Part shown: piece by piece, positions 20,446-37,874 of the stretch
How positions within the stretch are numbered: position 1 is the stretch's first letter
Layout of the letters: every line of letters begins with the position of its first letter
Assembly (NCBI GenBank): GCA_031082285.1
Contig: JAVHLK010000017.1
Location: 1-43,759, forward strand
Length of the DNA: 43,759 nt
From: Desulfomonilaceae bacterium
GTDB lineage: Bacteria; Desulfobacterota; Desulfomonilia; Desulfomonilales; Desulfomonilaceae
Direction of reading: 5' to 3'
The notes under the pieces: generated by a model
What the model was told of the DNA's origin: nothing
The model's input: only the letters and a program-made list of their open reading frames with translations
The model's database searches: none
Made by a program: the position numbers and the translations under genes

Positions 20446-21195
20446 ATGGAAGCACTGTTCATTCTCACATTGGCATTTGCACCGGGCTTGTTCTGGTTGT
20501 GGTATTTCTTCAAAAAAGACAAGCTCGAACCCGAACCCTTACACCGGATTCGCAACTGCTTCTTTCTCGGGATGGCGGTCGTAATCCCTTCCGCCTTTGT
20601 TGAGGTGCCGTTCGATCGCGTACATCCTCACGCCGCGCTCGTTATCGGCGCACCGATTATTGAGGAACTGGCCAAGTTTCTGGTCGTCCGGTACACGGTG
20701 TTCAGAAGCGCCGAATTCGACGAGCCCATGGACGGCGTAGTCTATGCCGCAGCCGTAGCACTTGGGTTTGCTTCATTGGAGAACGTCTTCTACCTTTTTG
20801 CCGAGTACCACCGCGGGGCTCACTCATTTGCCCTCGTCACCATATTTCGTGCAATACTCACCGTGCCGGGACATGCGCTCTGGTCGAGTATGTGGGGCTA
20901 TGCCTTAGGATTCGCGAAGTTTTCCGATGCGAAGTTCCGGAAGAAACTCATCGTCGAGGGACTGTTGCTCGCCATGGCCTTGCACGCGCTGTTCAACTTC
21001 CTCTGCCTGACGGGGACGATCCTGCCCCTCGGTATGCTCGTGCTGGTTCCGATCATGTGGAGAATGACCTCTCGACGAATTAAGAGCGCGCTGGAGCAAT
21101 CTCCCCACGTTCACTTTGCTGCGGAACGAACGGCCGAGACCGCCGAAGGACCTCCCAAGGGCACCGCCGGAGCGCGCAAGGACTACCGAACGTGA
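20446..21195 (+). CDS. PrsW-family intramembrane metalloprotease
   Basis: This 249-residue polytopic protein has all the PrsW-type motifs: PIIEELAKF with the Glu-Glu pair at 73-74, GFASLENVFY (Glu112-Asn113), VPGHALWS (His143) and ALHALFNF (His180). In the CPBP/PrsW superfamily these residues bind the metal. PrsW in Bacillus cleaves the anti-sigma factor RsiW; here the substrate is unknown. The C-terminal 40 residues are soluble. GAGGAGG lies ten bases before the ATG. It is followed by a surface-assembly-like gene run on the same strand. Confidence 0.88.
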   Translation: MEALFILTLAFAPGLFWLWYFFKKDKLEPEPLHRIRNCFFLGMAVVIPSAFVEVPFDRVHPHAALVIGAPIIEELAKFLVVRYTVFRSAEFDEPMDGVVYAAAVALGFASLENVFYLFAEYHRGAHSFALVTIFRAILTVPGHALWSSMWGYALGFAKFSDAKFRKKLIVEGLLLAMALHALFNFLCLTGTILPLGMLVLVPIMWRMTSRRIKSALEQSPHVHFAAERTAETAEGPPKGTAGARKDYRT

Positions 21196-21348: not shown

Positions 21349-21564
21349 GTGCCATCCGGAGCAATTCCCTTTGTGGCGGTTGCCGTGCTCTTGCCGGCGG
21401 CGATCCCCAATCAGGCCCTTGCATACATAGATCCGGGAGCGGGCAGTTACATGCTCCAATTGCTCGCAGCCGGCGCCATTAGTGCGCTGTTTGCGGTCAA
21501 GGTCTTTTGGGGAAGAATCAAAGCCTTCTTTAAAGGAGAAACGGACAAGGAACCGGAGAATTGA
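21349..21564 (+). CDS. Small exported or membrane-anchored protein (YIDPGAG type)
   Basis: This 71-residue protein starts at GTG 21349-21351 with AAGGAG eight bases upstream; an upstream ATG at 21244 would add an unlikely polar segment. Residues 1-24 look like a signal peptide ending at ALA. Then comes YIDPGAGSYMLQLLAAGAIS, leading into a membrane helix and a basic segment (FWGRIKAFFKGE). Its stop overlaps the TTG start of the following methyltransferase fusion (TTGA). I associate the YIDPG(A/T)GS pattern with small proteins next to polysaccharide-modification genes, but I know no function for it. Confidence 0.8.
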   Translation: MPSGAIPFVAVAVLLPAAIPNQALAYIDPGAGSYMLQLLAAGAISALFAVKVFWGRIKAFFKGETDKEPEN

Positions 21565-23021
21565 CCGAGGCGTCATCTTCCTCTCCATCGGGCGGCAGGA
21601 CGATCGACGCGCGGACCGCGAGCCTGTCCGCGTCCTTCAGAGACCCCAGCGGCTTTGTCTTCGTCAAAGACGGACGCTTGTATCGCTGGATACATGAATC
21701 CTACGCAGATACCTACAGGCATCTGAGGGTATCGGGGCTCTACGATGAACTCGTCAAGCGGCAACTCCTGATCCCCCATGAAGAGATGCCGCGGAATGCC
21801 GCTCAGTCGGCCGGCCACTATCTCACGATCCTGCCGGAACGGATTCCGTTTGTTTCCTACCCGTACGAATGGTGTTTCAGCCAACTGAAGGCCGCGGCCG
21901 CAGCGACCCTCGAGATTCAACACCTTTGCCTCCAACACGACATGACGCTGAAGGACTGCAGTGCGTACAACATGCAGTTCAGGGCGGGCAAACCGGTACT
22001 GATCGATACCTTGTCGTTCGACCGCTATGCCGAAGGTCGTCCTTGGGCTGCATATCGTCAGTTCTGCCAGCACTTCCTGGCCCCTCTGGCATTGATGAGT
22101 TATACCGACGTGCGGCTCAATCAGCTCTCCAGGATCTATATCGACGGGTGTCCGCTTGATCTGGCCGCGGCCCTTCTACCGCTCCGCACCTGGTTGCGCA
22201 TGTCTGTTCTCTTGCACATTCACGTACATGCGAAGAGCCAACGATACTTCTCGACGGGGGTCGAACGGCACCTTGGATCAGAGCCCAAACCAGGCTCATC
22301 GCGACGGAGAATGAGTCGGAAAGCACTCCTCGGTCTCATCGATCAGCTCATGACCGCGGTTCAAAAGTTCACATGGAGCCCTAAAGGAACTCAGTGGGCG
22401 GATTATTACGACGAGACGAACTACTCGGACGGCGCGTTCGAGCAAAAACGGGAGACGGTTCGCAGATTGCTGGAAAGATCGGCTCCGGGAATGGTGTGGG
22501 ACCTCGGCGCGAATACGGGCCTCTTCAGCAGAATAGCGGGGAAACTTGGACGCGATACGGTCGCGTTTGACATGGATCCCGCGGCAGTCGAACGTAACTA
22601 CCTGGAATGCCTGAAGAGAGGGGAAACCGGAATACTCCCGCTCGTGATGGATCTGACCAACCCAAGCGCCGGTACTGGATGGGAGAACCGGGAGAGGATG
22701 AGTCTCGCCGAAAGGGGACCGGCAGGCACGTGCCTGGCTCTGGCTCTTGTTCACCATCTCGCGATTTCCAACAATGTGCCCTTCGACAGGATCGCGGCAT
22801 TTTTCAGTACGATCTGTCGTGACCTGATCATCGAGTTCGTCCCCAAAAGCGACTCACAGGTCCAAAGGCTTCTGTCCGCACGAGAAGACATCTTCCCGGG
22901 ATACGCTCGCGACGTTTTCGAGACGGAATTCTCTCGTAATTTCCATATGCATGAGACGATCGAACTCCCCGAGAGCGGAAGGGTCATCTACTCGATGACA
23001 CGGAAACTCGGTGAGGCTTGA
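21561..23021 (+). CDS. Kinase-like / class I SAM-dependent methyltransferase fusion
   Basis: This is a 486-residue protein. The C-terminal half (about 300-485) is a class I methyltransferase with motif I VWDLGANTG (312-320), an acidic pair in AFDMDP (335-340) and LALVHHLAISNNVPF. The N-terminal half (about 30-230) resembles a protein-kinase/aminoglycoside-kinase fold: LKDCSAYNMQF places an Asp (132) and Asn (137) five apart, as in a catalytic loop, and PVLIDTLSF supplies a later Asp (149). WbdD, which caps O-antigen, also joins kinase and methyltransferase domains but in the opposite order, so glycan capping is a possible role by inference. The TTG start overlaps the previous stop and suggests coupling. 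Confidence 0.8.
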   Translation: MTEASSSSPSGGRTIDARTASLSASFRDPSGFVFVKDGRLYRWIHESYADTYRHLRVSGLYDELVKRQLLIPHEEMPRNAAQSAGHYLTILPERIPFVSYPYEWCFSQLKAAAAATLEIQHLCLQHDMTLKDCSAYNMQFRAGKPVLIDTLSFDRYAEGRPWAAYRQFCQHFLAPLALMSYTDVRLNQLSRIYIDGCPLDLAAALLPLRTWLRMSVLLHIHVHAKSQRYFSTGVERHLGSEPKPGSSRRRMSRKALLGLIDQLMTAVQKFTWSPKGTQWADYYDETNYSDGAFEQKRETVRRLLERSAPGMVWDLGANTGLFSRIAGKLGRDTVAFDMDPAAVERNYLECLKRGETGILPLVMDLTNPSAGTGWENRERMSLAERGPAGTCLALALVHHLAISNNVPFDRIAAFFSTICRDLIIEFVPKSDSQVQRLLSAREDIFPGYARDVFETEFSRNFHMHETIELPESGRVIYSMTRKLGEA

Positions 23022-23223
23022 CGCGGACATCATCGTCACTCCGGATCCGAACGACAGTACGATGACGACAATGAGTTTTCGTGATATACAGGGCTTCAGT
23101 CCGGCCCGTTCACGCAACAGTGTGTTGACGCTCGGTCCGAATCTCTTCGTTGTTCCGCTCGGAAGTGCCCGGCACCCGGAAGAGCGGCGGAAGAGAAGAA
23201 CTTCACGTGAGGAGATCTTTCTC

Positions 23224-23577
23224 GTGATCACCACAACAAACATTCTCGCCGAAACCATGTGTGCGGATTCCCTTGACGGAATCGTCACGACGCAAATCCA
23301 TCCGACGTGTCGGCGGTCCTTGGACCCGTCTGTTGATGAGTCCCCCCGCATTGACCCGTTCCGCCGGCTCGCCGCACCGCGCAAAGAAGATGTCGATCCG
23401 GACGATGATATGAATGATGAAGACTGGGATGAAGATGAGGACGAAGAGGACGATGAGTGGGACGAGGACGAAGAAGACTGGGATGACGACGAAGACGAGT
23501 GGGACGAGGACGAAGAGGATGACGATTTGGATGAGGACGAAGAAGACTGGGATGAAGATGAGGACGAAGACGAGTGA
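23224..23577 (+). CDS. Highly acidic Asp/Glu/Trp-repeat protein
   Basis: From GTG 23224-23226 (GAGGAG nine bases upstream) the protein has 117 residues. The N-terminal 60 residues are ordinary (MITTTNILAETMCADSLDG, then a basic CRRSLDP and a FRRLAAPRK patch). From about residue 63 the chain is almost only Asp and Glu, with Trp spaced mostly seven apart (WDEDEED, WDDDEDE, WDEDEED). I do not recognise a family. The frame is open upstream to 23011, but that region lacks a ribosome site and overlaps the methyltransferase end. A strong terminator follows at 23681. Net charge is extremely negative. Confidence 0.6.
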   Translation: MITTTNILAETMCADSLDGIVTTQIHPTCRRSLDPSVDESPRIDPFRRLAAPRKEDVDPDDDMNDEDWDEDEDEEDDEWDEDEEDWDDDEDEWDEDEEDDDLDEDEEDWDEDEDEDE

Positions 23578-23680
23578 CTCTCGATAGGCCCCTCGATTCG
23601 GGCAGTCGGTTGTGAGGCGGGTACCGGGCCTCGAATGACGGGCTTCTCAAGCGGGCATCATCCAGTAAGGTGGATTAGAG

Positions 23681-23705
23681 GGGCGTCTCCAAAGACGCCC
23701 TTTTT
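23681..23705 (+). terminator. Rho-independent terminator
   Basis: Perfect 8-base arms GGGCGTCT and AGACGCCC around loop CCAA are followed directly by TTTTT. It ends the PrsW-to-acidic-protein run, 104 bases after the acidic gene, and separates it from the flippase. Confidence 0.9.
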
Positions 23706-23756: not shown

Positions 23757-25205
23757 ATGAGCCTGACAAAGAATATACTGACTCGTTTCGCACACTTGCT
23801 TTCAGCCCAAGCCGTCGACGGCATACTGACCACCGGCTGGTTCCTGTACATGGCGTGGTCCGACCCTCACGTGTACGGAACCATCATGTACGCATTGGCC
23901 GGGGGAATGATCGTCACGCGGGTGGTCCAGTTCGGATTGTATTATGCGCTGGTGGGATACCTGTCCCGGGTTGACCGCGGCGAGATCCCCGGCGTGCTCC
24001 ATTCGGTAAACATTCTTAAACTCGTGCTGCTGGTACCCGCAATGGTCGTGGTCGGAGGGTTCGCGCTGTACCAGGCATTATCTCCGGATGTCGCCTGGGC
24101 GCTGTTTTTTGTGTGTCTCGGCTTCGGCCTTGAAGTGATAGCGGACACGTTCTTTGCGGACATGAGGGTGCGGGGTCGCCAGGACCAGGAGGCTCGTATA
24201 CGAATGATCAGTTCGGTCGCCTCCGTCGCGTACGCGTTCCTCACCACCGCCACAGGGCTCGGGGCGGTGATCGTCTCCCTGTTCAAGTTGGTCTCGGCAG
24301 TAATTCGCATCGCACTCGTGGCAACAAACCACATGAGAACCTACTCCGGGACTCCCTGGAGAATCACTCACTGGGCCTCGGTGTGGAGCTTGTTCACGGG
24401 GGCGAGCGTCTTTGCGCTCATTCAGATCTTGGGCCTGTTCTACAACAAAACCAACGTCTTCTTCCTCGAGCGGGTCACCGGAGTGAAGGGGGTCGCGCTC
24501 TACAGTGCCGCGTACAATCTGGTGGACCCCGTATCCGCCCTGGCTTCGGAACAGCTCCTGGGATGGGTGATCTTCCCTCTGTTGGCCTATTTGTGGCGCG
24601 ACAAGAAAGAAGATATCGGTCCGGTGGTGCACACCAGTGCGAGGTGGCTTCTGGTCATTGCATTTCCCATCATGTTGTTCCTGGCAGTGATGGGGAAGAC
24701 GATCGTGGACATCATCTATCCTCCCGAACTCAGGGCGTGCGCGTGGATGCTTCCCTACTTGGTCTGGACCATCGTCCTCTCATTTGAGGTCAATCTCTTC
24801 GCGTATGTCATGATGGTTACAGGGGCCCAGAGGATCCTCCTGGCCTTCGCATGCGTGGTCACCGCGTTCAACCTGTTGTTCAACGTGACGCTGGTGCAGT
24901 CCTACGGTCTGCTCGGCGGATGCCTGGTCATCATTTTCACCAAGCTCGTCATGACGGCTCTCACACTGATCTACTGCCAGTGGCGCTTCCGATTCTTCAC
25001 GCTTTTGGACGTCGTCTACCCTGCCCTGCTGTGGGTCGTACCCGCGGCCATGTACCTCCTCCTCGAACCTCACATCACGAGCATTCCCGCACTTGCGGTG
25101 ACTCTGGCCGTGTACGGCCTCGTCGTGTTCAAGACCGGTCCCACATACCTCGGGGACCTTCCCAAAGCTCCCCCTACCCGGGAGCGCGGAGATCCCGGTT
25201 TCTGA
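23757..25205 (+). CDS. Polysaccharide flippase-like membrane protein (Wzx/MATE fold)
   Basis: This 482-residue protein has about 12-14 hydrophobic helices and no long soluble domain, as in Wzx-type oligosaccharide flippases of the MOP superfamily. A characteristic stretch is VFFLERVTGVKGVALYSAAYNLVDP, equivalent to the family's N-x-x-D-x-x-hydrophobic-x-G-x-Y-x-x-A region, followed by a large central loop pattern (FPLLAYLWRDKKEDIGPVV). AGGA lies eight bases before the ATG. It probably moves lipid-linked glycans across the inner membrane. The substrate is unknown. Confidence 0.82.
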   Translation: MSLTKNILTRFAHLLSAQAVDGILTTGWFLYMAWSDPHVYGTIMYALAGGMIVTRVVQFGLYYALVGYLSRVDRGEIPGVLHSVNILKLVLLVPAMVVVGGFALYQALSPDVAWALFFVCLGFGLEVIADTFFADMRVRGRQDQEARIRMISSVASVAYAFLTTATGLGAVIVSLFKLVSAVIRIALVATNHMRTYSGTPWRITHWASVWSLFTGASVFALIQILGLFYNKTNVFFLERVTGVKGVALYSAAYNLVDPVSALASEQLLGWVIFPLLAYLWRDKKEDIGPVVHTSARWLLVIAFPIMLFLAVMGKTIVDIIYPPELRACAWMLPYLVWTIVLSFEVNLFAYVMMVTGAQRILLAFACVVTAFNLLFNVTLVQSYGLLGGCLVIIFTKLVMTALTLIYCQWRFRFFTLLDVVYPALLWVVPAAMYLLLEPHITSIPALAVTLAVYGLVVFKTGPTYLGDLPKAPPTRERGDPGF

Positions 25206-26527: not shown

Positions 26528-26996
26528 ATGGAAGAACCTCTTGGTATTTCGGGCAGGCAGGTATGTTACTCCCATCTCAAAGGATATGCAACGCGCGCGG
26601 TCTCCCGCGTTCGTTGTACCGTCACCGTCGGGAGAGCGCCTGTGAGACACCCCGGATGACGTGCCTCCGCCATAATCCTTGAACCCGCAAGATGGTGACT
26701 ATATAAGGATGGGGGAGGATGGAGATGAGATCCGGCCTCCCATCCTGGGGGAAGGATCTTCCGTCACCTTTCCCACATCGAGCGCAGTCACCCGGAGAGG
26801 CTTGCCCATGACTCTACTTGCCTGCCTGCAACCGCACGGCTTCCCCCGCGGGGAGGACAACGGAACGTCACGCCGTGGCCTACCTAATTGCAATGCGAAA
26901 ATTCAGAGGCAGACGGGCCGGGCCGGGCCGAAGAGCTCACCCCGGTTCCAAGTGGGGCGCGTGCCGGGACGCGAGCCCCGTGCCGACGACGTGGGC
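26528..26996. other. Divergent interval upstream of radical SAM and HEAT-like genes
   Basis: These 469 bases hold an imperfect hairpin, AGGATGGGGGAGG (26706-26718) against CCTCCCATCCT (26736-26746), with no T tract. The plus frame of the HEAT-like gene stays open through most of it, but with no domain or ribosome site, so I treat it as non-coding. Confidence 0.45.
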
Positions 26997-28049
26997 ATGG
27001 TGCAATCGCTTCGGCGGATTGCACTCTTGCTGTGTCTTGTTGTGCTCGTGATTCCCGCGCTTCACGAGCCGGCACGATCCGCGGAACAGAATAATTCAAC
27101 CGCGGCGGACGGTTCAATCCGGAGGCCGATCCTGAAGGACCTTTTCACCGGCATCTCGGAGGAAAACCAACGGGGCGGCGAGGAGAAGCTCGAGGATGTT
27201 GCAGGGCTCGTCGAACGGTTGAGCGAAGCGGATACCGGTTCGACGAACACGCCGGCGAAATCCCCCGATATGGTCGAAACACCCCGGCAGGCAATTGAAC
27301 GGATACTGAAGCGAACGATTTCTCGCCGGCCCGATGATGTTCACGTCCTCGACCCCGTGTTTGCCGCGGCAACCGAGGGAACGCCCGACCGCCGCAGGGC
27401 AGCGATCGAGATTCTTGGGTCGTTGAAGGAGCCTCTTGCAGAACCGCTCCTCGCCGGAATTGCCGCGGACAAGGGCAATCCGCTGCGAGAAACCGCGTTG
27501 ACGGGCTTAAACCGTATTCGATCGCAGGCCGAGGTCAGTCGGAAGAGCACGCACATGATGTACCTTCAAGTAGTTCTCCTGGCCGTGAGCATTGTGCTGG
27601 CCTGCGGTCTCGTCGCGATCGCCGTGCAAGAACGGCGCACCCGGCAAGACCCATGGCGGGTCGTCTTGTTGCTTCTCTGCGTGCTGATGGTCGTGTGGTT
27701 TCTCGGGATCGTCGGCGCGGATTACCTCATGTCGACCGTGACCGACACACGGATTGACCGTGCAGTCGAACGCAAGCAGGCCGTCGCCCTCGCGAAAAAG
27801 ATCAATTTCGAATGGTCGGAGTATCCCGGCGATTCATATGCCGCCCGATACCTCGTGCTCAAAGGCAACCCCGCGGTCATACCCTTGCTCGCGCACATCA
27901 AGAACGAAACTCTCCCGTCGATCCGGTACCAGGACTATTGGAACAAACATCTGGAGAGGCGCATAGACTGGACAATCGCGAGGCTGGAAGAGAGGCGGAA
28001 ACGATCCGAAGAGTCCGTCGGAGGGCCGGCCGACCGAACGCGACAATGA
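26997..28049 (+). CDS. HEAT-like repeat protein with signal peptide and two membrane helices
   Basis: This protein of about 350 residues starts at ATG 26997 (weak ribosome site). The N-terminus MVQSLRRIALLLCLVVLVIP looks like a signal peptide or anchor. Residues about 120-185 contain HEAT-like helices (RAAIEILGSLKEPLAEPLLAGIA, LRETALTGLNRI). Two membrane helices follow (YLQVVLLAVSIVLACGLVA and VVLLLLCVLMVVWFLGIVG). After them is another HEAT-like unit with GNPAVIPLLAHIKNE. No enzyme motif is seen. HEAT repeats in the envelope usually mediate protein contacts. Confidence 0.6.
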   Translation: MVQSLRRIALLLCLVVLVIPALHEPARSAEQNNSTAADGSIRRPILKDLFTGISEENQRGGEEKLEDVAGLVERLSEADTGSTNTPAKSPDMVETPRQAIERILKRTISRRPDDVHVLDPVFAAATEGTPDRRRAAIEILGSLKEPLAEPLLAGIAADKGNPLRETALTGLNRIRSQAEVSRKSTHMMYLQVVLLAVSIVLACGLVAIAVQERRTRQDPWRVVLLLLCVLMVVWFLGIVGADYLMSTVTDTRIDRAVERKQAVALAKKINFEWSEYPGDSYAARYLVLKGNPAVIPLLAHIKNETLPSIRYQDYWNKHLERRIDWTIARLEERRKRSEESVGGPADRTRQ

Positions 28050-29399: not shown

Positions 29400-29586
29400 T
29401 CACCAGGCTCCCGAATTGATGTAACATATCGAAACAAAGAGACATTTGTATGTAAACAGACTTTACATCTCGTGGCAAGTTGTCATAGCCCCTTCTCCTC
29501 ATCGCTCAGTAGGGAATCCTTGACCGGTATGTGGTACTGTACGACCGTTATTGCACCGAATTCGGCACGATGCTAAACTTCAGCCC

Positions 29587-31836
29587 ATGAGGGATCGCGT
29601 GAATACCGTTGAGCAGGTCGGGACACGTCACGGTTTCCCGGAAACCGGACCGTACCGACAATGCGAATGCACTGAACACGAGGCGAAGACGCGAATCCGT
29701 TGGGGCATGGTGGGCCTCGGCTTCGTACTTGCGAGCTCGGCATTGGTCGTGACCAATTACCCGGCACTGAAATCGCCGATGATTTACGATTCCGGACAGT
29801 TCATCTTGTCAAAAACAGAGCTATTTCAGCGAAACGGCATCTGGGACGTGATCGGCATCATACCTGTTCGACCACTGTTCATGGTCACGCTCTACCTCAA
29901 TTACTTGACTACGGGTATGGACCCTCAATATTTTCGTTTGGTCAACATTGTGCTGACGGCATTGACGGGGACGGTTCTTTCTTTGCTGATATTTCTCGTT
30001 TTGGACATTGGGCTCCGGGAAACTGTACGCGGCCGCGGTCGACTGCTCCAAGTGAGTCTATTCCTCGGTTTCATTTTTGCGATCCACCCTCTGCAGACCT
30101 TTACCACGCTATATATTTGGCAGCGTGAAGCGACTCTCGCCGCTTTGTTCTATTTCGCCGCCATAGCCGTCTATCTGGCTGCGCGATCCGGGCGTTTGAG
30201 GAGTTCAAAGGTCGGCTACGGGCTCAGCAGTGTGCTTTTTTTCGCAGGTATGTTGTGCAAGGAAAACGTGATTACGGTTCCGGCCGTGTTGCTCTTGGCC
30301 GATGCCGCGCTGATTCGGTGCGCCGGCAAGGAATTACGAAGAAGCGTAATTCGGGTAAGCGCTATCGCCTTTGTGCCGATGCTTTTGTACTTTCCCATAA
30401 CCAACCTTCTCGCCACCGCGGAAAGTAGGGAATTGCAGAACGCGTTGAGCCGGCTGAGCGGCTATTATCACTTTTCGGGATTATCCCTTGCAGAGGTCTT
30501 GCTGACCGAGTGTCGGGTTTTCTTCGTCTATTTGACTTCCATACTTGCGCCGATTCCCGGAACTCTCGATCTCGTCAAGCCGATGACCGTATCGCGGTCG
30601 CTGCTGACTCCGCCGATTACCATTGCGGCATGCGCCGGTGTGGCGGTCCTCGTGGGCACGGCCATATATCTCTTCCGCCGACGTCCCGTCACCGCGTTCG
30701 GGATACTGTTCTTCGCGATCAGTCTGATTCCTGAGAGTGTTCTTATACCCTACTACCTTTTCTTCGGCTATCGCGCCATCCTTCCCATGGCGGGCGTTCT
30801 CATGATTATCGCCGAGGGCATGCTTCAGGTTGCGGAAGCCGCCGCACGGAGCGACAGCCGCGTGAAGGCTTCCCGGATTGCCCTGGGTGTGATCGTGTCG
30901 CTCGTCGTCGTCGGCTTGCTTGCCGCAACCCATCTCCAGTCCGTCCGCTGGAATCCGTTGTCCTTCTGGGAGGAGGCATATGGTAAGCTTCCTCAAGAAA
31001 GATCGCTGATTGAGAAGAAGCCTTATTTGGATATACTTAACAATTTGACTGTCGTGCTCTCACGCAGGGGAAACATGCATGAAGCGGAAGAAGTGGTTCG
31101 GGAGGCTGTGGAATTGTACCCCGACGAGTCCGTCGGCGCAGTGATCGAACTTGGGAACGCCTTGCTCGCCGCCAATGATCTGCTCAAAGCGGTTGAGGTC
31201 TACCGCGGGGCAATCAGGCTCAAGCCGACATTGGTGCAACCGTATGTCAATCTTGGGGCAGCGTATGTGGCCCTGGGGTCGCACGAGAAAGCGACACGCG
31301 TCCTCCGAAAGGCCGTCTCTCTGGACCCGAAGCATGCGAGGGCGCGAGCGAATCTCGGCATCTCGCTGGTCAAGCTCGGCCTTCATACGGAGGCGATCAA
31401 GCACTTGGACGCGGCCGTTAAGCTGAACCCGAAGCTGGCAAATGCTCATTTTTTTCTGGGTGCGGCATGGGAAAATTGCGGCGATACTACGCGTGCCGTC
31501 ATGTCGTACGAACGGGCCCTGGGGCTAGAGCCAACGCTCATCGACGTCCGAATCCACTTGGCAAAGGCACTGATCAAGCTTGAGCGCCACCAGGAGTCAA
31601 TAGACCAGTATCAACGCGTGTTGCAGCTTGACCCGAAGAACTACCGGATCCACACCGACTTGGCCCGTCTATTCATGAGGACGTCTCAGTTCGACCGGGC
31701 GATCGGTCATTCGAGAGAGGCACTGCGTCTCAAACCTGATTTCAAGCAAGCCGGAGATATTCTCAAGTCGGCACATGAGCGCACCGGAGCACGTCCGCCC
31801 GAGCCGGTTCGTTCCCCGGGAACCCCGGAGCCGTAG
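29587..31836 (+). CDS. TMTC-like membrane glycosyltransferase candidate with TPR repeats
   Basis: This is a protein of about 749 residues from ATG 29587. The first 450 residues are polytopic with GT-C features: an Asp after helix 1 (PMIYDSGQFI) and a HPLQTFTTLYIWQREATLAALFYFAAI segment resembling the HP-x-x-x-x-V-x-W-x-x-xRa-x-x-L pattern of TMTC/DUF1736 proteins, known in animals as O-mannosyltransferases. The C-terminal 250 residues contain about seven TPR units (for example YVNLGAAYVALGSHEKATRVLRKAV, with LDPKHARARANLG after it). The role is probably transfer of a sugar to protein or glycan at the outer face of the inner membrane. Acceptor and donor are unknown. Confidence 0.8.
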   Translation: MRDRVNTVEQVGTRHGFPETGPYRQCECTEHEAKTRIRWGMVGLGFVLASSALVVTNYPALKSPMIYDSGQFILSKTELFQRNGIWDVIGIIPVRPLFMVTLYLNYLTTGMDPQYFRLVNIVLTALTGTVLSLLIFLVLDIGLRETVRGRGRLLQVSLFLGFIFAIHPLQTFTTLYIWQREATLAALFYFAAIAVYLAARSGRLRSSKVGYGLSSVLFFAGMLCKENVITVPAVLLLADAALIRCAGKELRRSVIRVSAIAFVPMLLYFPITNLLATAESRELQNALSRLSGYYHFSGLSLAEVLLTECRVFFVYLTSILAPIPGTLDLVKPMTVSRSLLTPPITIAACAGVAVLVGTAIYLFRRRPVTAFGILFFAISLIPESVLIPYYLFFGYRAILPMAGVLMIIAEGMLQVAEAAARSDSRVKASRIALGVIVSLVVVGLLAATHLQSVRWNPLSFWEEAYGKLPQERSLIEKKPYLDILNNLTVVLSRRGNMHEAEEVVREAVELYPDESVGAVIELGNALLAANDLLKAVEVYRGAIRLKPTLVQPYVNLGAAYVALGSHEKATRVLRKAVSLDPKHARARANLGISLVKLGLHTEAIKHLDAAVKLNPKLANAHFFLGAAWENCGDTTRAVMSYERALGLEPTLIDVRIHLAKALIKLERHQESIDQYQRVLQLDPKNYRIHTDLARLFMRTSQFDRAIGHSREALRLKPDFKQAGDILKSAHERTGARPPEPVRSPGTPEP

Positions 31837-33769: not shown

Positions 33770-33898
33770 CCGCTTCTCAACGTGAAGCAGGTGTGTGGAC
33801 TCGGCCCCCTGATTCCTGCAGATTTCCAGTTCGGGTTCGGAAAGCGGTCCGGACTCGACCTTGTACCGGCCCGGCCCGGAGGTGTAGGGAATAGTTGT

Positions 33899-35743
33899 AT
33901 GCAGCGAACTCACCGTACAAAAGGATCTGAATCGGAGCACCGAGACACTCGATCGGCCTCTTCGTCGATCGGCGCCCGACAGAATGCGTCCTATCTGTTG
34001 ATCGCATGGTTTCCCATCTTTGTCGCGTTCGTGCTCATACCGTTCGCGGTGTTCATTCCAAACCAGACGGATTTCAGCGAGAATTTCTTTGGTCCCTCGG
34101 TCGGCATCATCACTGCCGTAATTGCGTTTCTCCTGCTCTTGCCCGTGCTGCTGCTGCAACCGCGGGTTCGCGCTCGGGTTTCTGTTCTTCTCTTTTTTTT
34201 CGGGATTTATCTCGTGCTGGCGGACGTCTTCGCACCGCTTCAGATTGGAGCGTTGACATCCGGACCGTCACAGATAACCCCGTGGTCGCCGCCGTTTTTC
34301 ACCATCGTGGAACTCGTTCTCCTGGGCGTGTGTCTGTGGACGGGAATCCGGATACCGACCCGATGGGCGACCACCATCGGGGTTCCCTTCGTTATTGTGC
34401 TGGTGGCTTCCCAAGCGTTGTACTTCGCGGCCAACATCGGCTCGAATATCGTCGTGAAGGGAGGGGGATACACGTTTTACGAGAAGAAGACCCATCCATT
34501 CATTACGGAGAATCCGGCACAAACGGGGAACGTATATCAGATTTGTTTTGATGCCTACAGTAGCCTGGTGTTCTTGGACGCGGTGAAGCACCTGGACGCT
34601 TTCGACGCGTTCGAGGGGTTCACCTTTTTCAAGAATAATCGGTCCAACTACGCCTTAACCTGTGGTTCGCTTCCCAGCTATCTCACGGGGACTTTTTTCC
34701 CCGGCGGCAGCGCAATAAAATGGGACGAGCTGCGCACCGGGTCGGGAATGATCAAGACGCTCCACGACCACGGGTATGTCGTATCCATGTACGTTCCCGA
34801 CGCGGGGTATTTTCATGACCTTGGTTCCTATAACCGGCAGGCAATGGACCTGATCAAAGACAATCGCAAACCCGAGTGGTTCTTCGATCCCCTGGATTTT
34901 GCCGATCTGTGTCTGCTCCGGATTGCTCCCACGTGGATGCAGCAAGTGGTGTATTCCGGAGGCCGCGGCTTACTCAGTCGTTTGTTTGGATCGCGGCGGC
35001 AAGAAGTCGGTGCGACAGGGCATGAGGAACCACCTGTTCCACAAGACAATGACGATTACGGCCTGTTGGCGGAAGCACTGCTCAACGATGAGGGCGCCCG
35101 TCCGCCCAGAGGGCAATATGTGTATGCGCACTTGCTGATGACACACGAGCCGATCGGAGGCAGGAACGCGGATTGCTCTCGCAACAGCAAGGGCGACGCG
35201 ACCTATTTCGATCACACGGTCTGTGCCGTCAAGATCATGGTGCGTTTCATCGAGGAACTCAAGAACCTGGGACGGTTCGAGGACTCCATGATCATCATCC
35301 AGTCGGACCACGGTTATGCGAGTGTCGGGAACCCCAATGAAGAAAAATTGCCGCCGGATGTGGCCGCGCGAATTGCAGCGCTATCCGCGTTCGACCCTGA
35401 TGCGATGATCAATAGAACGCATGCCTTGCTTCTGGTGAAGCTTCCGGGACAAACCCGCGCTCCTCTTCGTGTTTCCGAGAGCCCGACCATGCTGGCCGAC
35501 TTACCCGCAACCGTCTATGACGCGTTGGGGATCGATCAAGTGACTGAGCGAGGGACGTCCGTCTTTAAGATCAAGGAATCTGAGGCACGGGAGATTCACA
35601 TGTTCGCCGGCTTCTACAAGCATGGAATCATGGGTCAGTTGACCAAGATGAGCCGCGACAGAAAGGGCGAGCTGTGCCATTTCTCTTTGACCGAAGGCAA
35701 GGGATGGAAGCTGTATCCCAATATACCTTTCACCAGGGATTAG
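33899..35743 (+). CDS. Membrane-anchored alkaline-phosphatase-fold transferase, paralogue 1
   Basis: From ATG 33899 (AGGG nine bases upstream) the protein has 614 residues. Residues about 30-180 contain five membrane helices. The rest is a sulfatase/phosphoethanolamine-transferase-like domain: CFDAYSS with metal Asp218, ALTCGSLPSYLTGT with Thr254 at the position of the sulfatase Cys nucleophile, HLLMTHEP, and IIIQSDHGYAS with Asp470-His471. Thr at the nucleophile position is typical of EptA, OpgB and LtaS rather than sulfatases. It probably adds a phospho-substituent to a surface glycan or lipid. It shares a C-terminal GELCHFS...YPxIPF ending with paralogue 2. Confidence 0.85.
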   Translation: MQRTHRTKGSESEHRDTRSASSSIGARQNASYLLIAWFPIFVAFVLIPFAVFIPNQTDFSENFFGPSVGIITAVIAFLLLLPVLLLQPRVRARVSVLLFFFGIYLVLADVFAPLQIGALTSGPSQITPWSPPFFTIVELVLLGVCLWTGIRIPTRWATTIGVPFVIVLVASQALYFAANIGSNIVVKGGGYTFYEKKTHPFITENPAQTGNVYQICFDAYSSLVFLDAVKHLDAFDAFEGFTFFKNNRSNYALTCGSLPSYLTGTFFPGGSAIKWDELRTGSGMIKTLHDHGYVVSMYVPDAGYFHDLGSYNRQAMDLIKDNRKPEWFFDPLDFADLCLLRIAPTWMQQVVYSGGRGLLSRLFGSRRQEVGATGHEEPPVPQDNDDYGLLAEALLNDEGARPPRGQYVYAHLLMTHEPIGGRNADCSRNSKGDATYFDHTVCAVKIMVRFIEELKNLGRFEDSMIIIQSDHGYASVGNPNEEKLPPDVAARIAALSAFDPDAMINRTHALLLVKLPGQTRAPLRVSESPTMLADLPATVYDALGIDQVTERGTSVFKIKESEAREIHMFAGFYKHGIMGQLTKMSRDRKGELCHFSLTEGKGWKLYPNIPFTRD

Positions 35744-36014: not shown

Positions 36015-37874
36015 GTGGCGCAAGATACTTCTCGGAATGACCTGAATGAGGGACGGATCGGCAAGGTGCAAGCCATTCTCATCGGATGGTTTCCTGCGCT
36101 GGTGGCTCTCGTTCTCATTCCTCTCGATCTGTATCTACCCAATCAGGACGATTTCGGTTACAACCTGGCCCTACTCGCTCCGTGGATCTTGATGTCCGCG
36201 GTCTGGGGTCTTGCTTTGACCGGCCTGCTATGGACACGGGCCAAATACCGTCTCAGCGTTTCTGTGGGGTTGTTCTATTTTGGGATCTTCCTGGCGTTAA
36301 GTGATCTGTTGTTCCCGGTTCGTGCGCATTGGGGTTCGATCGAGACTCCAACCCAATGGACTTGGAACGTGGGAGTTCCACTCGGTGTTGAGGCACTTAT
36401 CGCAGTGGGCCTTGTGTTCTGTTTCAGGATGGTTCCGTTCAAGTTCGTTCAAACCGTGGGTTCGGCGTTCGTAGCCGTATTATTGGTGGTTCAGCTCCTC
36501 ACGCTGCCTGGGCGGATATCTCCCGATTCGATCGTCGTTCTGGGGGGCAAGGTCGTGTACGACTTCAGGGCAAAGGCGCCGAGTCTTGCTGCCAACCTTA
36601 AGAGTCCGAATATCTATCACTTCGTACTTGACGGATTCGGGAGTTCGGTATTTGAACAGGCGATTGCAACTGGGGACACTATTGACGGACTTGATGGCTT
36701 CACGTTCTTCCGAAACGCACGAGCCAACTACATTTGGACCAATTATTCAATGGCGAGCTACCTGACGGGAACTTTCTATTGCACGGGAAGCGTCGGGCAA
36801 TGGATGAGCTTGCGCAAGACCGATGGACTTTTTAGAACTCTGACGGAGGCCGGCTATAGCCTGACTCAGTATATTCCAATACGGTACTACATGCATGCAA
36901 ATGCCTCACGTTTGATCGATCCGATCGATGTCGCCTCGAAAGAAGGCCTCTCGGAGAGGATCCCGGGGACGTCGGAGTTTGCGGATCTTTGGTTCGAGCG
37001 CGTGATGCCGCAGGGCATCCTGGGTCTTGCCGAGTCATTCCGCAACTCGGGCAGGCTTAAGGAGTCATTGAACCACGATTCCGGTCCAGAACGGACGGCG
37101 GACTATGAGGAGGAGCTTGCTCGCTTCCTCGACGGCGAATCGTCTACGGATCCGGAACGAAAAAGGTGGATACGCAAGATTTACACGTCTCTTCCACTTA
37201 TGAAAAGACTTATTGTAGACGAAAGTACCCGGCCCAACCGCGGTCAGTACGTATTTCTGCATTCCTACATTTCACATGAGCCCCACGACGTGTTGGATAA
37301 GAATTGCCGTCTCGTCGCCGGCACACAACCACGGGACCAGGCAGCCTGCGCCCTGAAGTTCGTAAGGGAATTCACGGATACGCTCAAAGAGCTGGGCCGT
37401 TACCATGAATCTCTCATCATCATCCACGCTGATCATGGATCGAGCGCCACCGGTCCATCCGACCCTTATCTGCGTATTCCCGTGCACATGTTGGACGAAA
37501 TTGCGTCGGTGACCCGATTCCCTGCTGATCTATTGTGCAACAGGACATTTCCCTTGTTGGCGATTAAGCCTCCCAACACGTCCGGACATCGCATAAGAAC
37601 TTCCATGTCCCCTGTACAGCTTGCCGACATTCCCCCAACAATTTGTAGTCTTGTAGGTTTGCAGGAACCTGAGGGGGTGGGAGAGACGGTCTTCTCCCTT
37701 GGTGAGTCGGACGAGAGAGAGATCCACATGTTTTTCGGATTCGCTCGACAAGACGAACGGGGCGAAGTGCAATGGGGAGGAAAGCAACTTCTCGAAGGAG
37801 AACTTTGTCACATCTCGTTCTCCTTCGCTCAAGGATACCGGAAATACCCTCGCATCCCTTTCCAATGGCAGTGA
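36015..37874 (+). CDS. Membrane-anchored alkaline-phosphatase-fold transferase, paralogue 2
   Basis: This 619-residue protein starts at GTG 36015 with AGGAGG four bases before it. Five N-terminal helices begin IGWFPALVALVLIPLDLYLPNQ, nearly superimposable on paralogue 1. The catalytic domain has FVLDGFGSS (Asp206), NYIWTNYSMASYLTGTF (Thr242 as nucleophile), LHSYISHEPH and IIIHADHGSS (Asp473-His474). It differs strongly from paralogue 1 between residues 290 and 400, so the two may have different acceptors. The gap upstream (35744-36014) carries sequence related to the flank at 38461-38515. Confidence 0.85.
   Translation: MAQDTSRNDLNEGRIGKVQAILIGWFPALVALVLIPLDLYLPNQDDFGYNLALLAPWILMSAVWGLALTGLLWTRAKYRLSVSVGLFYFGIFLALSDLLFPVRAHWGSIETPTQWTWNVGVPLGVEALIAVGLVFCFRMVPFKFVQTVGSAFVAVLLVVQLLTLPGRISPDSIVVLGGKVVYDFRAKAPSLAANLKSPNIYHFVLDGFGSSVFEQAIATGDTIDGLDGFTFFRNARANYIWTNYSMASYLTGTFYCTGSVGQWMSLRKTDGLFRTLTEAGYSLTQYIPIRYYMHANASRLIDPIDVASKEGLSERIPGTSEFADLWFERVMPQGILGLAESFRNSGRLKESLNHDSGPERTADYEEELARFLDGESSTDPERKRWIRKIYTSLPLMKRLIVDESTRPNRGQYVFLHSYISHEPHDVLDKNCRLVAGTQPRDQAACALKFVREFTDTLKELGRYHESLIIIHADHGSSATGPSDPYLRIPVHMLDEIASVTRFPADLLCNRTFPLLAIKPPNTSGHRIRTSMSPVQLADIPPTICSLVGLQEPEGVGETVFSLGESDEREIHMFFGFARQDERGEVQWGGKQLLEGELCHISFSFAQGYRKYPRIPFQWQ

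Follow-up and report, generated by a model that had tools for sequence, protein, structure and literature searches.

A YIDPG microprotein gene overlaps the start of a NoeA-family kinase-like/methyltransferase gene in a Desulfomonilaceae bacterium

The window analysed here is a whole stretch of 43,759 nucleotides from a Desulfomonilaceae bacterium (contig JAVHLK010000017.1, assembly GCA_031082285.1). It encodes a microprotein with a YIDPG motif and a larger protein with a kinase-like and a methyltransferase half (Table 1). Both open reading frames were confirmed in the sequence, including the overlap of the TTG start with the stop of the smaller gene that a first-pass annotation had described: the TTG codon and the TGA stop have common bases within the tetranucleotide TTGA. 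The microprotein gene has a GTG start with AAGGAG upstream, and the hydrophobic segments of its product span residues 1–21 and 34–54. Residues of the larger protein are numbered with the TTG codon as residue 1. A PrsW-type protease is encoded on one side of the pair and a Wzx-type flippase on the other, consistent with work on envelope glycans. Two genes for NoeB-like enzymes lie on the same strand ~11 kb away, not adjoining it.

Table 1. Coordinates of the genes, domains and residues discussed, in the window unless another locus is named.
Feature	Position	Strand	Remarks
YIDPG microprotein, 71 aa	21349..21564	+	Signal-peptide-like segment ending ALA, YIDPGAGSY, one TM helix, basic tail
NoeA-family kinase-like/methyltransferase protein, 486 aa	21561..23021	+	TTG start overlapping the stop of the microprotein gene
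Kinase-like domain, ~residues 19–250	21615..22310	+	SFRDPSG loop, Arg42, catalytic loop; AlphaFold model of this domain alone, pLDDT 90.6
Arg42, invariant	21684..21686	+	87/87; R38 is the same substitution in Lani_1194 (PMC9758233)
Catalytic triad Asp132 (21954–21956), Asn137 (21969–21971), Asp149 (22005–22007)	21954..22007	+	Conserved in 87/87
Class I SAM methyltransferase domain, ~residues 274–486	22380..23018	+	Motif I DLGANTG 314–320, invariant His398-His399
PrsW-family intramembrane protease, upstream	20446..21195	+	PF13367 E 3e-42; context
Wzx-type polysaccharide flippase, downstream	23757..25205	+	PF13440 E 5e-12; context
NoeB-like enzyme, multi-TM plus sulfatase/alkaline-phosphatase-superfamily domain, candidate partner	33782..35743	+	Neighbour cluster 1; PF00884 E 8.5e-10
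Second NoeB-like enzyme	36015..37874	+	Member of the neighbour cluster; PF00884 E 2.4e-4, below Pfam's cut-off
Unnamed YLDPGTGS gene, 71 aa, in the nodL-noeA-noeB operon	L082 4766–4981		Ensifer canadensis pT173b

The N-terminal half of the 486-residue protein gave no kinase match in Pfam, NCBIfam or PDB sequence searches. The sole kinase-type sequence match was a weak one to RIO1 in one of 80 family members (E 0.069), leaving the kinase fold visible by structure only. An AlphaFold model of the whole protein, built from an 80-sequence alignment, was confident (mean pLDDT 88.2, pTM 0.90). With the whole protein as query, methyltransferases filled the fold search, and a separate model of the N-terminal domain was therefore made and used as the query. 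Foldseek then returned PAK/TNIK as its best match (E 6.2e-05), and VIA-align returned RNase L, matched in its kinase-homologous region (Z 9.9, rmsd 4.2, 195 residues), and TYK2 (Z 9.9, rmsd 4.4, 201 residues); the matches listed by Foldseek and all 50 listed by VIA-align are protein kinases or kinase-homologous. The model confidently predicts a two-lobed protein-kinase fold for this half. Strand 128–130 is followed in the model by Asp132, Asn137, strands 138–141 and 144–147, and Asp149, which is the kinase order of β6, catalytic loop, β7, β8 and DFG. The invariant SFRDPSG sits ahead of strand 32–36, at the place expected for a nucleotide-binding loop, with Arg42 in the next strand.

Conservation was assessed in 87 sequences, made up of the 80 aligned homologues and divergent members including NoeA, with identity down to ~33%. 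D132, N137, D149, R42, D28, E103 and W104 are unchanged in every one. The catalytic Lys (VAIK) is absent, Arg42 occupying its position throughout; this arginine is likely the equivalent of Lys72 of PKA, a positional equivalence taken from PMC9758233. The first-pass annotation had called this half kinase-like from its Asp-x4-Asn motif and a later Asp, a reading it would have given up for an unrelated fold or for a lack of conservation at these three residues. The predicted fold is kinase-like, and the three do not vary, whether among the 80 aligned homologues or with the divergent members included.

The C-terminal half, annotated earlier as a SAM methyltransferase, is one by both domain and fold: Pfam finds Methyltransf_23 in 78 and Methyltransf_12 in 56 of the 80 members, and the predicted structure agrees. 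The SAM-binding residues D314, G320 and D339 and the HH pair at 398–399 are invariant in the 87 sequences. The protein has no TM segment, and its chain ends with the methyltransferase fold. VIA scores for this fold are effectively tied between MePCE (Z 18.0), NodS (Z 17.9) and WbdD (Z 16.6). MePCE is the methylphosphate capping enzyme, and NodS is a Nod-factor N-methyltransferase. The near-tied top structural neighbours thus include MePCE and WbdD, both known to methylate phosphate; as proof of phosphate methylation their high ranking was rejected, since unrelated methyltransferases tie within Z 1–2.

The window protein is a member of a described but biochemically uncharacterised family. It matches NoeA of Sinorhizobium and Rhizobium at 33.3% identity over 95% of its length (E 5e-62; tblastn, plasmids), and the family HMM recovers NoeA at 2.4e-117. 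In 2022 Lani_1194 and NoeA were described as a new family of kinase-methyltransferases, in which R replaces the catalytic Lys, the D/N/D residues are conserved and an AlphaFold model shows a kinase-methyltransferase (PMC9758233). The kinase-methyltransferase idea of the first-pass annotation was therefore right but not new, and its 'new type' of enzyme has to be withdrawn; the glycan capping that it suggested is not supported either. About two thousand Lani_1194 homologues were found, 94% with a methyltransferase, and two neighbours are conserved: Lani_1193 in 65% of neighbourhoods and Lani_1195 (NoeB, with an alkaline-phosphatase fold) in 38%. The same authors compared a second kinase-methyltransferase family with WbdD (PMC9758233). 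Lani_1194 and the window protein share the order of kinase then methyltransferase, R for K and the D/N/D residues, and the Lani_1194 family also has an alkaline-phosphatase-fold neighbour; Legionella members of that family, however, are predicted effectors (PMC9758233), whereas the window protein is an ordinary envelope-type gene product.

As cited in PMC9048898 and PMC10945364, the 1995 work of Ardourel and co-workers found the nodL-noeA-noeB operon to be needed for nodulation of particular Medicago hosts, and a truncated noeA occurs in a strain that fails on many M. truncatula genotypes (PMC4053727). The literature covered reports no reaction, substrate or activity for members of the NoeA and NoeB families.

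The genome that contains the window has one copy of the NoeA-like gene, and a clear full-length homologue is present in four of 148 related genomes, its own included. At least 581 relatives were confirmed among 84,980 species genomes scanned. The best 80 of these, at ~53–61% identity, represent Chloroflexota, Zixibacteria, Desulfobacterota, Planctomycetes, candidate-phyla-radiation lineages and archaea (Methanoculleus). That the gene is patchy among close relatives and yet highly identical between phyla suggests that it spread horizontally. No phage homologue of the protein was found.

The coupling to a tiny YIDPGAG protein, also pointed out in the first-pass annotation, is not due to chance. 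A YxDPGxGS microprotein gene lies directly upstream of the NoeA homologue, mostly with an overlapping start, at 70 of the 76 loci with enough sequence. In the usual layout, a hydrophobic signal-like stretch with AxA at its end leads into Y-I/L-D-P-G-T/S-G-S-Y and a single TM helix, and W-x-K-I-K-x-F-F and a charged tail complete the protein; many Anaerolineae microproteins are without the signal segment (M-x5-Y-L-D-P-G). Residues Y26, D28, S33 and Q37 are invariant, and the tail is poorly conserved. In Ensifer canadensis, a 71-residue 'hypothetical protein' (MPIIMSVLGFLILSIVPAHAYLDPGTGSMLVQ...) is encoded between nodL and noeA and overlaps the noeA start. The linkage survives rearrangement, as one locus (L084) has the order NoeB-NoeA-microprotein, with the microprotein on the other side of NoeA. 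Of 301 Chloroflexota genomes sampled, 46 carry the microprotein, 44 carry NoeA and 42 carry both, leaving two with NoeA only and four with YIDPG only (Fisher p 3e-44, shared ancestry uncorrected). The microprotein is a near-obligate, separately re-used partner of NoeA, and less known than the kinase-methyltransferase family. It may well be Lani_1193; the text of PMC9758233 does not describe the sequence of the small neighbour. Literature searches, covering the main text of mostly non-subscription papers, yielded no description of the YIDPG motif, and a prior mention is possible. Two other explanations of the microprotein were rejected: a mis-called gene overlap, since the arrangement is kept across many phyla and also in the Ensifer operon as annotated, and a relation to SelL, for which the match (E 0.037) is far below cut-off.

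Besides NoeA, one family recurs as a neighbour, being present in 56 of 80 locus sets by neighbour clustering, and NoeB itself is assigned to it (2.3e-21). These NoeB-like proteins usually have four to five N-terminal hydrophobic segments followed by a sulfatase/alkaline-phosphatase-superfamily domain, with a conserved T in 'nY..T..Sl.s.Ln'. The layout is LtaS-like: LtaS-type enzymes, NoeB and the two window enzymes all have N-terminal TM helices and then a sulfatase-fold domain, although the NoeB-like family is a distinct subfamily. For the window enzymes, NCBIfam gave no equivalog match above cut-off. At 47 of 74 loci the gene immediately downstream of NoeA is NoeB-like, and the two often overlap by 4 bp; microprotein, NoeA and NoeB-type genes all adjoin at 45 of 79.

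YIDPG proteins also occur with no adjoining NoeA. They then stand beside a NoeB-type enzyme (Leptolinea, G006 contig 84), beside type I phosphodiesterases of PF01663 (G054, G091, G157, G162, G163) or, in two copies, beside sulfatases (G161). Two genomes, G072 and G166, encode PF01663 proteins with YIDPG fused at the N-terminus, as checked with Pfam, and G108 has a long open frame of a similar kind. NoeA lay within 1.5 kb of the microprotein at 41 of 50 places examined. At eight of the nine others an alkaline-phosphatase-superfamily gene lay within 3.2 kb, and at six of these it was under 120 bases away, a count that is suggestive and not independent, because two of the eight may adjoin NoeA remnants and some models come from the same neighbourhood type. 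Simple ORF calling weakens two of the gene-call tallies in GC-rich genomes, and for this reason adjacency was tested a second time, on frames running from stop to stop.

Elsewhere, YIDPG or YIDPNTGG microproteins are paired with or fused to PF01663 enzymes where NoeA is absent (L105 7410–7739, L106 7273–7551, L136–L138, L139 5315–7369, L104 6437–8617), and we found no description of a microprotein family paired with PF01663. Beside one NoeA locus, in a genome labelled Nitrospirae, are tandem microprotein-sulfatase pairs of the YIDPNTGGFFF type (L140 9222–9458 and 11419–11655), which look like a local duplication.

We propose, at about even chances, a conserved envelope-decorating module that consists of the YIDPG microprotein and NoeA, in most cases together with a NoeB-like enzyme, with phosphorylation and then methylation as in WbdD. 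The proposal is built on family membership, the predicted kinase fold, the conserved residues, the gene coupling, and the pairing and fusion of the microprotein with phosphatase-superfamily enzymes; kinase activity, sugar phosphorylation, phosphate methylation, chain capping, the substrate, the order of reactions, the topology and the protein contacts are at the level of inference. NoeA would be a soluble cytoplasmic protein. Its kinase-like domain probably adds phosphate to a hydroxyl of an intermediate, either glycan or glycolipid, that is bound to the membrane. The methyltransferase would then act on the phosphorylated product, the order, by analogy, being most likely that of WbdD. The single-pass microprotein would have its conserved Y-I/L-D-P-G-x-G-S end outside and its basic tail inside, probably holding NoeA at the membrane and probably linking it to the extracytoplasmic, LtaS-like enzyme of the alkaline-phosphatase superfamily, which would act on the same product after flipping.

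Several observations speak against such a module. Outer gene neighbours are diverse, and many Anaerolineae loci lie amid housekeeping genes; in the window the NoeB-like genes are 11 kb off, and the usual catalytic Lys is Arg. In a survey of these outer neighbours, which the first-pass annotation had suggested with glycan transport genes in mind, sugar-nucleotide and glycosyltransferase families lead, yet they are a minority of 118 genes. An envelope-glycan setting of the window gene is plausible. The noeA gene of Sinorhizobium/Ensifer shares with it full-length homology, domain order, catalytic residues and a microprotein immediately upstream, and it too has NoeB downstream; it lies, however, in a flavonoid-inducible nodulation operon, whereas the window gene is near a flippase and other envelope genes and has its NoeB-like genes 11 kb away.

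NoeA could instead be a chain terminator like WbdD of E. coli O9a, phosphorylating and methylating the non-reducing end of a lipid-linked polysaccharide, which would stop elongation and license export, with the microprotein a mere tether. The two proteins combine the same catalytic modules, kinase-like and class I methyltransferase, and WbdD methylates the phosphate that it places on the terminal mannose of the O9a O-antigen (PMC3482155); WbdD is also among the methyltransferase fold matches (Z 16.6), and a flippase lies downstream in the window. We nevertheless regard this as unlikely. Fold prediction and conservation agree with the first-pass annotation that the domain order is opposite to that of WbdD, with the kinase-like half N-terminal; that half has no sequence match to WbdD; the C-terminal coiled coil/membrane-recruiting region is absent, a separate microprotein being present instead; and NoeA works in a nodulation operon, where the products are short oligosaccharides. 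Because the microprotein family also serves alkaline-phosphatase-superfamily enzymes without NoeA, the 'membrane tether' of the first-pass annotation is too narrow, and the microprotein looks more like an accessory at the membrane to a decorating module of NoeA and NoeB.

The kinase-like domain could also be inactive, given Arg42 in place of Lys and an alpha-C Glu that the 2022 authors could not identify (PMC9758233). It would then be a pseudokinase scaffold, leaving the methyltransferase as the one active domain, with a sugar or an amino group in a glycan as its target, and NodS is among the structural neighbours of that domain. This too seems improbable, as neither Asp132 nor Asn137 nor the metal-binding Asp149 varies down to ~33% identity, which would be unusual without catalysis. 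That NoeA phosphorylates or methylates the cytoplasmic tail of the microprotein to regulate the extracytoplasmic enzyme would fit the near-obligate genetic coupling but is very unlikely, the tail being poorly conserved, the invariant Y26, D28, S33 and Q37 being at the presumed outer face, and the microprotein being used without NoeA in other pairs.

The module we favour may be one branch of a widespread two-sided membrane machine, a wider reading that we hold tentatively and put at somewhat under an even chance. YIDPG proteins would serve alkaline-phosphatase-superfamily enzymes in general (NoeB/LtaS-like, type I phosphodiesterases, sulfatases) as partners, and those of the NoeA branch would couple a cytoplasmic kinase-methyltransferase to an extracytoplasmic phospho-transferase. 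If so, the nodL-noeA-noeB operon would have an essential component that has been overlooked, namely the 71-residue gene in front of noeA. The host-range nodulation phenotype of NoeA/NoeB has been known since 1995, and a microprotein partner would make this long-standing question testable. The module would also give context to many proteins annotated just as hypothetical or as SAM-dependent methyltransferase.

Other features of the window lie between these genes. Directly 3' of the NoeA-like gene, at 23411–23578 (+) within an ORF at 23011–23577, is a very acidic low-complexity frame of D/E/W repeats (MNDEDWDEDEDEEDDEW...); acidic runs also terminate several Anaerolineae YIDPG microproteins. At 23681–23705 (+) is a perfect hairpin, GGGCGTCT-CCAA-AGACGCCC, followed by TTTTT and unique in the window. 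It is likely a terminator between the NoeA unit and the flippase gene; a terminator scan did not list it. Between the NoeA-like and NoeB-like genes are a HEAT-repeat multi-TM protein (26679–28049) and a TPR protein weakly similar to Wzy_C_2 (29551–31836), possibly with further envelope-glycan functions.
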